Shown in pieces: positions 28,973 to 42,349 of a stretch of 64,000 nt of DNA. Below the pieces are notes generated by a model, which was given only the letters and a program-made list of their open reading frames with translations, did no database searches and was not told where the DNA came from. Each line of letters opens with the position of its first letter. Position 1 is the first letter of the stretch. A program made the translations under genes and the position numbers. The DNA is from Theristus sp. LFF4_11 (taxonomy: Eukaryota; Nematoda; Chromadorea; Monhysterida; Xyalidae), in NCBI GenBank assembly GCA_030248135.1, contig JASANC010005530.1:1-64000 (forward strand), in the 5' to 3' direction.

Positions 28973-31900
28973 TCAGTTCCTCCGAAAGCCGACGGCGTAA
29001 CGAATACAGAACTTAACATTCTGTCCACAGGCAGGCAGGCTCACATTCAGCCTTGTCCAACTGCCCCGGTTGTACGACGCGACTGTGTCAGGCCTGCCAC
29101 TGCGATCACCATCATTATCATAGTAGTCGCCACCAACTGCCAGCAATGACCCTCCGCCGACGGCCACGAGTGGCAGCTGGACAAAGAAGCAACCGCAGGT
29201 ATTCAGAGTGTTGTGCGTCGCTTTTTCAAACTGTCTGGCCTTACATGCTGAACTGACATGCGCGGAAAATAGAATAAGGTCAGTTTTCACTTTGGTCCGT
29301 GAAAACTGACCCCATTGGCTTATGTCTTGGAAGAGAAATCTATGAGAAACAAAGCTTTTGCTGGACCATGGTCGGAAAGTTGAGCGGGAGTCGCAGTTCT
29401 GACGTCAGGCAGAAGCCAGCAAATCACAAAATATCAGAAATTATTTCATTCCTTTTATGAACCAAAAAGGAACGATTCTCAACCGAAAACGCACACAAAA
29501 TTCAAATTTGGCACACTGAATACAAACGGCATTCGTGGTGACAAACCATCCGAACGTCTCCGAACAAAAAATGAGAACACAAAGTGTTGTCTGCTTCTGC
29601 GCGTCTGCGTGCGCTCGAGTGGAGCCTGCCAACTTACAAAAATGCGAGGGCGCCCGGGCATGTCTTCAATGAGCGACCATCCGGTGGAGGCCGAGTATCG
29701 TTCACAGCTGCTCATCTTCACCCAGGTTCCCCCATCCAAACGGTCACCACCACAGGCAAACCTGCACAGAGACGAAAAACAGTGATGGAGCACAATACAC
29801 GCATGCACACGTCGAAAAACGCACAAAGTAAAATGTAACACAGCCTTGCGTGGTTGGTTGGCTGAAAGCAAAAGTTCGGGCACACTGATTGGTCTCTGTA
29901 TATCACACGATGCAACCAATCAACGTGTCATGGTTTGGAATTTTCAGAGAATGTAAATTCAGAGCATAGTTTGGTCCCTTGGACACGACTGCTGCGTGTG
30001 ATATGCATTTGCGGGCGATTCAATGATTTTGAAACTAAACTGGCTAGCAGGAAACGATCACCAAATGAATGACGTCACAAAAGGCACTGCGTCTGTGAAA
30101 CTTGGCACATACAGGTGCGTGCCATCGGAGGCCATTCCGTGTATCCTTCGTTCCGTGCGCATGTCTGCCAGACGGTGCCACGTCCATTGGGCACCGTCGA
30201 CGTGGAACGACAGTCGATGCGTCACTCGAAACACGGTCCAATGGCCGTCCACTTTGCGCCTGCCACCAGTGACGAACAGCTGACCCTGCAGTTGTGTTGC
30301 TGATGTGTTTCGTATTCGATATTTTTTTAATCGAATGACTGACCGCAATGAAACAGTTTGCCTTTTTTCAGAGAAATCTTTTTGTAGGTTTTCTGGTTAT
30401 GCACGCCATTGAGAAACCACAGACAAGCAGTTTTTTATTCAGGTGCTTTCCATAAGAAACCAGCTTCAAGTCATACTGATTAAACCATCTTTTTCTCGTT
30501 CACCAATACCCACCGGCAGATAGCCTTGTGTGGGATGCACACTACCACACGATGCACCGCACAGCCATTCTGCTCGTGTTTCACGTCTAAATGACTTGGA
30601 TTCAGAATTAAATGCTGGTTTTTGCCACAAATTTCTTGACAGGTCTAAACAACACACACAATCAAAACACAACGACCAGCAGCTGCTCAATTCGTTTTAG
30701 TTTTTCTCATCACATTTTTTTACTTGCGCCCAAAACTGTTGGCCCGATCCACATTTTAAACGGTTTTTCCAATGACAGTGCTGTCAATGACAATGACAAT
30801 GACAATGACAATCTGTCCGGAATTACTATTTCCACGGTAATATCGACCCTCGTCTTAACCTGCATAAAATTCGAAACCCCTGAAATATTGTAAACTGAAA
30901 CACGAGCAGTGTGTGCACACAGCCAAACAATTATCAGTTTCGTCCGCTACAGCTGGAAAGACACACAAAAAATAAACATTTCGCCAAAAATGACCTTCAT
31001 TGAGCACAATGAGCTCACCTGGTGCACGGCAGCGGCGTGTGAATCCAGGCTCAGCTCCGGCGCCTGTGTGAAATTGACGCGAATCAGCGTCCAGGGCGCC
31101 GCGTAGTCGTCAGCCGGCCGCTGCTCGCACGATCGCTCGCAACCGGCGCTGACAGAAGAGCAACGAGGGCAACAGCCGCACACGATGAACACGTTCCACT
31201 GTGCCAGGTAGTCCGTCGACGTTGCTGCAGATCTGCGCAGTTGCAACGGCGGCACGTCGCGCGTCAGCCACGCCCGCCAGCGCACGTTGAACACGTGGCT
31301 GTTGTGTGTGTTGCGATCTGTGGGATGATGAACACACTGGTAAATGCGAAGTGCCACGGGAAATGGAGTTTATTTATTGGACTCGAGAAGCGATTTTTTG
31401 GGAATTTTATTTACTAAAAAAACCGACATACAAAAAAACGCAAATTCTGGAGAAAAATGATGATGGTAATGCAGAAATGGATATTGCACGACTGTGCAAA
31501 TATTTCTTTTAATGAGTCCTTCAATTTTGCAACTATGATTCATAGTAAAACAGGTGTGGGCGCAGCACCATGCTTTCAGCTAGTTTCAACAAACACGGCA
31601 TTTTTGCCACGAAAACAAATGAAAACCTGGAGAAAACGCACAACTTTTCACGAAGTTACAAATACCTCGACAGTCTTTTGAGCATCCCTTGTGCATAGTT
31701 TTTCTGACCAAACACTAAAAACATTTCCATCCTGATATTACATTATTGTAAGGTTCGATTGTTAGAGAAAATGTAAACAAAAATTCCGAGTCACCTGCGA
31801 AAAGTGCAAATACGCTGCACATGTTGAAATTCAGATTTATATGACAGTGGTATGAAAAAGATTGAGATAAAAACCACAATTCACAGAGAAAAAATAATGA

Positions 31901-40900: not shown

Positions 40901-42349
40901 CTGTTAGTAGAAATCGGTTGGTAACATGGTGCAAACGGTGACATTGAGAATAATATCTTGGATCTTTTCTTCCACCACCTGTTCTGTCATATTCTCTCAT
41001 GTTTTGTGTGCAATTTTGGATAGGTAGCAAAATGGAATGGACTAAAGTTCCCAATTGCTTTAAGGCTTTATTTGGACACAAATCTCACAATTAAAAATTA
41101 TTATCATGCAAAACGCAAAAAATAGGCATTATGTAGCTGAGAACAAGTTTGCGTGTTCAGCGACGCATGTTATGCGCCATAAAAAAGTTAACCCTTGGAT
41201 GTGCTAGTTCAAATTTCAGCAACACTGATAAAGCTGTCAAGAGTTACAGGCAATCAAAAGGTGTCCCACTACTTTTGGCCCACCCTATTATTTTATGCCA
41301 CGTGTTCGTGCAGTTGTGGTTGTGGATTCACATTCACAAACCTGTGCATTTGAAAAATGTCCGTCTTTTTTTTCTGAAACCACTGCAGAATCGTTTTTTG
41401 CTTCTAAAAATCAAAGTGAATCTGAATCGATAAGTGCACGGGTTTACACCTGTGCCTCAATATATACAGATACGTAAATGTTTCTCTGAAGATTTAAACA
41501 TATACATATATAATCAAATTCTTATACAGTGAACATTAGGAATTCCGGGCCTTATAAACGGGGTAGGATTCGAAGAAAATTTTGAATGGGGGGTGCACAT
41601 CTGCAATGTTCCTGCATGATCAAGCACATAAAAGAACACCACTAACCTGTCGGAATTCGTTCCTCAAGCTGTTCCTGAAATGAAAAAACTTCAATTACAG
41701 TGTAATAACGAAAACACACGGTGTTTGTAAAAACGATGTTGTGGGGGGGGGGGGGGTTAAAAAGTTGCATGTACGGTATGGCCGATTAAACATGGCAGCT
41801 TTTTTCAGGGTTCAAGGAGCGGGGGGGGGGGGTTGGCCAAACATTTTCAAAAACATGTGCAAAATACGTTGCATGTACCTGAACAGCACCGATTTGCTCA
41901 GTGCGAGCCTGAAGGCAGTGATGTTGCGCAGGCTTACTTGCAGCTGCGCGTTTGTGTGCACGTGTGTTTGTATCTGTAGTACTACTGTCCTCAAACAAAC
42001 ACAATACAAACACTCCATCATTTCAAGAAACTGACCAAACTGGTCAGCACGATCAGACTTGGCCAGTGTTACATGAGCGTCTGCCGCACCTTTTCCCGCG
42101 AAGTTGTGTTTCCAACTCAGTGACTCAGCACTCCGGTAGCAACACACGGAGCAACTTCTGACAAAAGAAAACATCACAACGCACCATGGTGCACGGGTTC
42201 GTGGTGATCACGCGTGTGCACCAGCGTTCACCCAGTCGCTGCACGCACTCCAGGAAGTCGGTGCATGTGGCCGGACTGGTCGCCAGATGGATCAACTGTT
42301 GCACGAACAGCAACACGATCAACAGTGACATCGCCATTTTCAGCTGCAT
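28973..42349 (-). CDS. Secreted astacin metalloprotease with LDLa, TSP1, LDLa and kelch domains
   Basis: Thirteen exons keep frame over all introns and give about 792 residues: 42349-42185, 41674-41647, 40565-40381, 39204-39047, 37986-37818, 37055-36674, 35797-35627, 33666-33517, 32468-32298, 31317-31019, 30285-30113, 29761-29638, 29176-28973. Order: signal peptide ([20 protein letters not shown]) and a four-Cys segment; astacin catalytic domain ([11 protein letters not shown], zinc site [28 protein letters not shown]); LDLa ([13 protein letters not shown]); TSP1 ([15 protein letters not shown]); second LDLa ([13 protein letters not shown]) with a Thr-rich linker; kelch-like blades (LFVTGG, WHRLADM, LLFACGG, LLAVGG). 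It should be an extracellular zinc endopeptidase; substrate unknown. The Met-turn Met is Leu. The signal-peptide exon could belong to another gene, but its phase and the 28-bp exon fit. Domain calls are firm; each short exon is less so. Confidence 0.85.
32912..33180. mobile_element. MITE-C copy
   Basis: TACGGAATGACCGAGTAAAC to TTTATTCGGCCATACTGTA, with GTGCAAGGAGCGCGCGAATC and CTGATCCCGCCTTGACGG inside. It lies in the astacin-kelch intron between exons at 33517 and 32468. Confidence 0.75.
33527..33556. repeat. Coding hexanucleotide repeat (Thr linker)
   Basis: GGTCGT repeated about five times; on the minus (coding) strand it reads ACGACC and encodes the Thr run after the second LDLa domain, next to the splice donor at 33516. 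Confidence 0.8.
34920..35410. repeat. Diverged tandem repeat with AAAAAGGCTTGGCTTAGGTT motif
   Basis: Three to four imperfect copies, about 90-180 bp apart, of ACAAAAAGGCTTG(G/A)CTTAGGTTAGGG(T)GAACGGG plus AAGCATTAGCTTTTTAAAAC. The same motif is in the arms of the 21430-23085 element and at 2100-2150. Intron of the astacin-kelch gene. Confidence 0.55.
35828..36278. mobile_element. MITE-A copy (TACCGTATTACC ends)
   Basis: Inverted ends TACCGTATTACCTCTAATAA and TTAATAGAGGTAATACGGTA. Contains CCCCCATGGGGG palindromes, G runs and a conserved core (CTTTTCACAGAGATTTCCTTTTG; CATCCCTTTGGGGCCTTTGG). About 451 bp. Copies at 39607-40054 and 56759-57219. It starts 31 bp upstream, on the transcript strand, of the TSP1 exon. 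Confidence 0.85.
38265..38798. repeat. Very long CA microsatellite with CGCA tail
   Basis: Uninterrupted (CA) for 486 bp, 243 repeats, at 38265-38750, followed by (CGCA) for 12 repeats. It lies in the intron between astacin exons 39204-39047 and 37986-37818; in the transcript it reads as (UG)n. A run this pure suggests recent expansion, though exact length depends on assembly. Confidence 0.97.
39607..40054. mobile_element. MITE-A copy
   Basis: Ends TACCGTATTACCTCTATTGA and TTTATTAGAGGTAATACGGTA; the core is in the reverse direction relative to 35828. It was inserted into a 30-bp tandem repeat (below). Same host gene, different intron. Confidence 0.85.
40052..40195. repeat. 30-bp tandem repeat split by MITE-A
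   Basis: About four to five copies of ATGTTGTGCGCTTGCAGCTA plus TGTTGTAATT. One more copy lies at 39577-39606, on the other side of the MITE-A insertion. Confidence 0.75.
41774..41832. mobile_element. MITE-C fragment
   Basis: TACGGTATGGCCGATTAAAC, ATGGCAGCTTTTTTCAGGGT and CAAGGAGCG, then a run of G. Only one end of the element is present. Intron 1 of the astacin-kelch gene. Confidence 0.6.

Follow-up and report, generated by a model that had tools for sequence, protein, structure and literature searches.

Can a secreted astacin-type protease carry a kelch propeller, a fold best known from intracellular ubiquitin ligases? The question is raised by a locus in a window of 64,000 nucleotides from the nematode Theristus sp. 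LFF4_11 (GenBank assembly GCA_030248135.1, contig JASANC010005530.1, positions 1 to 64,000). An earlier reading of the letters alone, here called the original prediction, had proposed 13 in-frame exons encoding a signal peptide, an astacin domain with a complete zinc site, LDLa, TSP1, and LDLa modules, a threonine linker, and kelch-like blades. We place the gene at 28973-42349 on the minus strand, which that prediction had left unstated, with the ATG beginning at 42349 and the TGA finishing at 28973. Splicing of the 13 exons gives a frame of 2379 nucleotides (792 amino acids) with zero inner stops. This frame and its Pfam domains confirm the proposed order, from a signal-like start through the astacin domain, LDLa, TSP1, LDLa, and the threonine linker to the kelch propeller, and the zinc motif was found complete in exon 5. 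All 12 introns are bounded by GT and AG, given the borders as picked, which was done by eye to make the phases agree. Read from its sequence, the locus is a single frame with recognizable modules, their order is conserved at other loci, the kelch part has many relatives, and variation is concentrated in the BC and DA loops of the propeller. Taken as a whole, we think it reasonably probable that the product is a secreted astacin-type protease aimed by a diversifying kelch recognition head.

That protease and propeller form one real gene is, in our estimate, nearly certain. The alternative is a wrong join of two adjacent genes, one for a secreted astacin-LDLa-TSP1-LDLa protease and the other for kelch alone. 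Exon 9 does hold an in-frame ATG, with a stop 48 nucleotides upstream inside the intron, and kelch copies without a detected astacin exist. Yet exon 8 terminates in a splice donor rather than a stop, and of the 15 aligned sequences that have a residue at the methionine of the exon 9 ATG, 11 lack methionine there (the sixteenth has a gap). Comparison with other contigs of the same genome, designated here by C numbers (C3519 is the contig of the window), argues in the same direction. In C3356, exons 3 to 13 occur in the same order and on the same strand (11 of 11 tested exons, 60 to 88% identity per exon); exon 1 was not found in the stretch examined, and exon 2 is too short for the test. In C2581 and C481, a single exon carries both the final cysteine of astacin and the opening strand of kelch: C2581 exon 37841-38031 reads ...LYG then C SISPNVSPLNGGVLIIS, and C481 exon 4013-4245 reads LLYG then C SPATP...DYLMIS. 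Neither LDLa nor TSP1 lies between astacin and kelch in these two genes. A separate kelch gene was the outcome that the original prediction had named as its refutation, and these two-domain exons contradict it, making the two-gene explanation very improbable.

The C2581 model is open from HExxH to the stop and the C481 model from HExxH through exon 12. Both leave out the first half of the astacin domain, which Pfam nevertheless recognizes (9.4e-22 and 3e-23, respectively). In the C2581 model the first donor has GC in place of GT; in C481 an extra intron splits exon 10, and exon 13 was not placed. C1022 has C2581-type astacin exons followed by TSP1, LDLa, a threonine linker, and kelch (gene read to exon 11). 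A single small candidate was found for its bridging exon, giving the final cysteine and fitting both phases, and matches to exons 12 and 13 lie about 15 kb further along on the same strand. Near-identical copies of the window gene are present in C246 (exons 5 to 13) and C2188 (exons 6 to 13), with intact splice sites and frames in the exons present; both contigs have an end inside the gene, and C2188 covers the astacin domain only in its C-terminal part. Insertions and deletions are multiples of three in 8 of 8 exonic cases versus 15 of 117 intronic ones (three nonindependent pairs summed, with the C2188 contig-end gap omitted). Because of these intact frames and splice sites and this spacing of exon indels, we rejected the reading of the kelch part as decayed or a pseudogene.

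The protease part begins with exon 1 (42185..42349, on the minus strand, as are all exons below), which supplies the start codon, a signal-like hydrophobic stretch (signal peptide by eye), and a cysteine-rich N-terminal segment (amino acids 1 to 55). Exon-1-like sequence also occurs at C3495:2984, C635:63139, and C2792:8335. The propeptide is encoded by exon 2 (41647..41674), whose 28 nucleotides are too few for a similarity test and which was placed on GT-AG signals and phase only, and by exon 3 (40381..40565; 80% identity to C3356), which also begins the catalytic domain. Exon 4 (39047..39204) continues the astacin domain, as judged by frame, Pfam, and similarity to C3356, and exon 5 (37818..37986; frame, Pfam, and 100% identity to C246) holds the HExxHxxGxxH zinc motif and the subsequent family glutamate. 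Exon 6 (36674..37055; frame, Pfam, and similarity to C3356) contributes the C-terminal half of the domain, including its SILHY turn and last cysteine, together with the first LDLa. TSP1 lies in exon 7 (35627..35797) and the second LDLa with the threonine linker in exon 8 (33517..33666), both supported by frame and Pfam. The Pfam Astacin model matches residues 103 to 312 (E = 7.6e-39; 133.8 bits against a cut-off of 22.5), Ldl_recept_a matches two stretches (E = 4e-19; 69 bits against 24.1), and TSP1_spondin is also found (E = 5.2e-12; 46.3 bits against 41).

Definitions of the astacin zinc motif, the SIMHY Met-turn, and the two disulfides were taken from the available text of a 2023 review (PMC9848320). 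The catalytic domain of the window protein keeps the zinc histidines, the catalytic glutamate, the family glutamate, the tyrosine, and four cysteines. Its Met-turn reads SILHY, with the tyrosine retained and leucine in place of methionine, and departs from the canonical SIMHY; for this reason we term the protein astacin-type by homology rather than a canonical astacin. The methionine is likewise replaced by leucine in C3356 and by threonine in C1022, while C2581 retains SIMHY. Such changes could point to a former protease, weak or dead as an enzyme and retained as a binding protein in which the propeller does the work, and the C3495 locus, which keeps an exon-1-like start, TSP1, LDLa, and kelch without detected astacin exons, would suit that account. 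It sits poorly with the retained zinc histidines, catalytic glutamate, tyrosine, and cysteines and with a ratio of nonsynonymous to synonymous divergence (dN/dS) of 0.21 for exons 3 to 5 against C3356. Metzincins, moreover, tolerate leucine at the Met-turn, and we consider loss of the enzyme improbable. Across the 159-Mb genome, at least 155 astacin exon matches were obtained (150 of 367 candidates scored), and the genome therefore contains many astacin genes.

The propeller occupies the last five exons, to which six blades and their loop borders were assigned by hand according to the pattern of kelch repeats. Exon 9 (32298..32468; frame, relatives' matches, and paralogue alignment) opens at strand B of blade 1 and runs through strand D into the beginning of blade 2; exon 10 (31019..31317; frame, relatives' matches, and paralogue alignment) covers blades 2 to 4, including a cysteine-rich BC loop in blade 3; exon 11 (30113..30285; frame, Pfam, and relatives' matches) covers blades 4 and 5; exon 12 (29638..29761; frame and relatives' matches) belongs to blade 5; and exon 13 (28973..29176; frame and relatives' matches) encodes blade 6, a last strand that is strand A of blade 1, and the stop codon. 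An additional minus-strand exon at about 30483-30644, open and with AG and GT signals, was dropped from the model because a direct join of exons 10 and 11 restores a kelch strand, as in the paralogues. According to the available portion of the KLHL20 structure report, blade I of that protein consists of the C-terminal strand A and the N-terminal strands B to D, and its substrate surface is shaped by the BC and DA loops (PMC6720452). The putative closing strand in exon 13 corresponds to this reported closure.

Kelch_1 is recognized by Pfam (E = 1.8e-5; 24.6 bits against a cut-off of 20.1), with a kelch score of 39.3 bits for C3356. A profile built from eight family sequences matches solved structures of the KLHL type, the best natural one being KLHL20 (E = 1.1e-21), and it matches a BTB-kelch protein with a probability of 92%, in an alignment where the GG pair and strands C and D coincide with the hand assignment. 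The putative six-blade pattern is consistent with the paralogue alignment, a 102-column profile match, and the KLHL20 topology. The Pfam attractin/LZTR1 propeller model matches the window protein weakly (E = 0.063), and the Pfam scan of this protein gave no BTB or BACK domain. An NVS sequon is present in all 14 of the kelch rows long enough to show it (16 rows in all), and the kelch intron phases of the window gene, 1-0-2-0, recur in the distant C2581 gene. The last propeller strand is immediately followed by the C terminus, and no stretch that could serve as a membrane segment or anchor was seen (by eye); given this and the signal-like start, the protein should be secreted and soluble.

Beyond what the original prediction described, there are many kelch relatives with and without detected astacin, with heads that diversify and that have apparently been re-paired with proteases. 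A genome search with the kelch part gave at least 123 kelch exon matches on 28 contigs, the window included (123 of 165 candidates scored); the weakest of them may be ordinary kelch genes, and the relatives are partly clustered. Astacin and kelch occur together in seven of the loci read (C3519, C246, C2188, C3356, C1022, C2581, and C481). An eighth candidate for a fused locus is C2065, where astacin at 63838-64548 is accompanied by a weak match to kelch at 67202 (E = 2.5e-4). Other relatives have the head without a detected protease. C3495 (C3495:1-9500) has an exon-1-like start, two TSP1 modules, LDLa, and kelch, with no astacin exon detected. C2792:8335-13087 has a similar start, astacin exons, two TSP1 modules, and LDLa, on a contig that finishes at 13209, before any kelch match; between these two, a protease was possibly lost or gained within one lineage. 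C754, C491, and C2783 have an LDLa-like match ahead of kelch (32, 33, and 47 bits, respectively) and no astacin in the stretches read, and C3391 showed neither LDLa nor astacin in about 7.5 kb upstream of kelch. An LDLa pattern search was uninformative, being blank even where LDLa is clear.

To what extent do the heads differ, and where? The copies in the window, C246, and C2188 align colinearly, and their introns differ by 2 to 4%. C2188 also remains colinear with the window downstream (27549-23611, 99.6%), while the C246 flank differs; the C2188 copy probably represents an allelic version or a recent duplication, and more than two alleles could be present if the assembly derives from several individuals. 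Kelch exons are more divergent than the intervening introns: differences in kelch exons versus introns number 52/965 versus 130/3420 for window-C246, 37/971 versus 82/3560 for window-C2188, and 54/971 versus 113/3433 for C246-C2188. Among these three near-identical copies, 38 of the 121 columns in the BC and DA loops are variable, compared with 10 of the 204 remaining columns (Fisher p = 1.7e-10); on the opposite face, the AB and CD turns have 2 variable columns out of 37. Because the variable sites were known before the borders were drawn, the loop labels were rotated along the sequence; none of 324 rotations reached 38 variable loop columns. Nonsynonymous divergence in the loops is 0.130, 0.103, and 0.137 for the three pairs, about fourfold the intron divergence (0.032, 0.026, and 0.034), compared with 0.017, 0.004, and 0.017 outside the loops; the neutral yardstick here is the introns of the same genes in these three copies only. 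In a wider set of 17 kelch sequences (136 possible pairs), the proportion of nonsynonymous differences (pN) is higher in loops than in scaffold in each of the 134 pairs that had enough sites. The scaffold ratio of pN to the synonymous proportion (pS) is 0.24 to 0.70 among the pairs listed with a scaffold pS of at least 0.1, which, like the exon indels, speaks for a gene maintained in function. Site entropy over 14 rows is 1.65 bits in BC and 1.38 in DA loops versus 0.48 to 0.95 in the other classes. Many related genes, together with replacement change above neutral at presumed binding sites, are the marks of a diversifying family, and both were found here.

Heads and proteases also have conflicting relationships, as seen in a comparison of C1022:81501-91000 with C3356:11501-31000. 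The C-terminal part of the C3356 astacin domain is 85% identical to that of the window (122 residues) and 43% identical to that of C1022 (104 residues), whereas for the kelch part of C3356 the identity is 84% to C1022 (201 residues) and 69% to the window (293 residues). In the kelch tree, C3356 and C1022 are sisters (support 98/93); the seven rows that carry astacin fall into more than one group, three changes are needed, and one change was found in 0% of bootstrap trees. Nonsynonymous differences between C3356 and C1022 affect 1.6% of scaffold sites and 25% of loop sites. Because the astacin and kelch relationships conflict between these two loci, the heads seem to have been swapped; the most economical explanation is that recombination or conversion has moved kelch heads or scaffolds from one astacin body to another.

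Several observations nevertheless weigh against a recognition head shaped by selection and joined to a working protease, the altered Met-turn described above among them. The window protein gives only two separate Kelch_1 stretches, even at E values up to 10, and the profile match to the BTB-kelch protein spans 102 columns. In C2581 and C481 the kelch matches (2e-6 and 0.0023) all lie under the curated Pfam cut-offs, so the kelch part of these genes rests on similarity to the window kelch. Exon 6 has a dN/dS of 0.96 against C2188, on few changes. The loop borders were hand-drawn with the variable sites already known, the three pairs are nonindependent, and the clustering of changes violates the independence assumed by the Fisher tests. 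Most propellers, in addition, vary more in loops than in strands. For the whole kelch part, dN/dS in the closest pairs is 1.14 and 1.21 (0.55 against C3356), and values near 1 could also arise from relaxed constraint. Synonymous divergence, too, is higher in loops (0.105, 0.068, and 0.084) than elsewhere (0.020, 0.013, and 0.020), and exchange between copies or old alleles may therefore explain part of the loop excess.

The last two observations suggest a different account of the fused protein, in which the propeller is structural or anchors the protein to matrix and the loop differences reflect weak constraint and exchange, with no selection for recognition. It would also accommodate the large number and partial clustering of the kelch relatives and the conflict between kelch and astacin relationships, from which exchange seems to occur. 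What it explains poorly is a loop nonsynonymous divergence about four times that of introns in all three of the (nonindependent) pairs, for which lost constraint alone is insufficient, and the near invariance of the opposite-face turns. We regard this account as a serious but unlikely one.

In the reading that we favor, the aimed protease, one gene would give rise to a secreted, soluble astacin-type zinc protease bearing a C-terminal six-bladed KLHL-type kelch propeller on LDLa/TSP1 spacers and a threonine-rich linker. LDLa and TSP1 may serve to space the domains or to contact the matrix, the BC and DA loops would together make up a single target-binding face, and the astacin domain, after removal of the propeptide, would cut that target or a neighboring molecule. 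The original prediction had the propeller dock on a partner; the concentration of variation on one face fits this part of the proposal, with binding itself still putative. The family would then represent changeable recognition heads with and without protease, and selection, aided by exchange between copies, would maintain the diversity of their binding face. Immune defense, self/non-self recognition, and gamete recognition each fit, and the data favor none of them. A broader proposal, which we put forward tentatively and consider open to real doubt, is an undescribed recognition system in which lineage-specific secreted heads of KLHL origin, with germline-diversified loops, are re-paired among bodies, some of them aiming astacin-type proteolysis at foreign, non-self, or gamete targets. 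A protease bearing a head in which change falls mostly on the putative binding surface would be a natural form of targeted proteolysis by exchangeable recognition parts, and it would bring the kelch propeller into the set of folds that serve variable recognition in the extracellular space.

Has such a protein been described before? Astacins occur with a wide variety of accessory modules. None of the 31 entries in the Figure 1 legend of the 2023 astacin review, which include the catalytic domain and tails, is a kelch, propeller, or LDLa module, and a search of the main text for the terms kelch, propeller, and LDL gave 0 instances of each (PMC9848320). In the literature searched, as far as its text was available, no astacin with a kelch propeller was found, in agreement with the statement of the original prediction that none was known. 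A whole-protein search gave 24 matches among 7005 candidates, none with a listed kelch Pfam domain. An alignment-based search gave no matches among 7999 candidates, the poly-threonine in the alignment having probably flooded the word search, and a search with the C3356 kelch part gave one match, a BTB-kelch protein, among 1209 candidates. No kelch-astacin fusion was found outside this genome by these insensitive searches, which are limited to relatives sharing exact words and for that reason argue only weakly for absence elsewhere. The earlier designation as an undescribed protein type accordingly holds within the collections and literature searched, and we extend it no further.

Parts of the architecture recall known systems. 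Members of astacin family M12A (crayfish astacin, BMP1/tolloid, and meprins) resemble the window protein in the signal-like start, the propeptide-like stretch, the Pfam catalytic domain, the zinc site, the Met-turn tyrosine, and four cysteines fitting the two disulfides set out in the available review text (PMC9848320); the window protein differs in its C-terminal kelch propeller, in its LDLa modules, which like kelch are not in the module list of the review, and in SILHY for SIMHY. The closest architecture in the protein search, Ciona LOC100174993 (P0009), combines astacin, TSP1 modules, and C-terminal FG-GAP/VCBS repeats (PF13517), which are of a propeller-forming type. Its repeats are not kelch and make up a short stretch, no LDLa is listed, and it has a hydrophobic, membrane-like stretch near the N terminus (by eye). 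BTB-kelch proteins (KLHL20 and KEAP1) provide the best solved-structure matches and, in the structural descriptions available, have six four-stranded blades and a C-terminal strand closing blade 1, the pattern putatively assigned by hand to the window protein; the window protein differs in having no BTB or BACK domain, a secreted-type context, cysteines, an NVS sequon, and loops diverging faster than introns. Attractin and MEGF8, which are large membrane proteins without a protease, have extracellular kelch propellers alongside other secreted modules. The window protein would share this extracellular type of kelch with secreted modules; it differs in having a protease domain, and its match to their propeller model is weak. 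In the ADAMTS proteins, which are secreted metzincins of a different family and have no kelch, TSP1 and other C-terminal modules help to select substrates.

Other features of the window were noted in passing. A CA repeat of about 550 bp lies at 38265-38813, within the intron between exons 4 and 5. Directly upstream of the gene, the open frame at 43758-44665 has nearly the same translation as one at 610-1518, marking a duplicated stretch of at least about 1 kb. A 149-bp satellite forms two arrays in opposite orientation, at 11504-12630 (7.6 copies) and 23615-26479 (19.3 copies), and satellite-like sequence of this type is also present in the C246 and C2188 flanks. Minus-strand open frames at 53412-53783, 58629-59096, and perhaps about 63690-63998 encode similar hydrophobic segments, e.g., VLFIINAAFGIVGAF; by eye, they appear to belong to a repeated family of small multi-pass membrane proteins.

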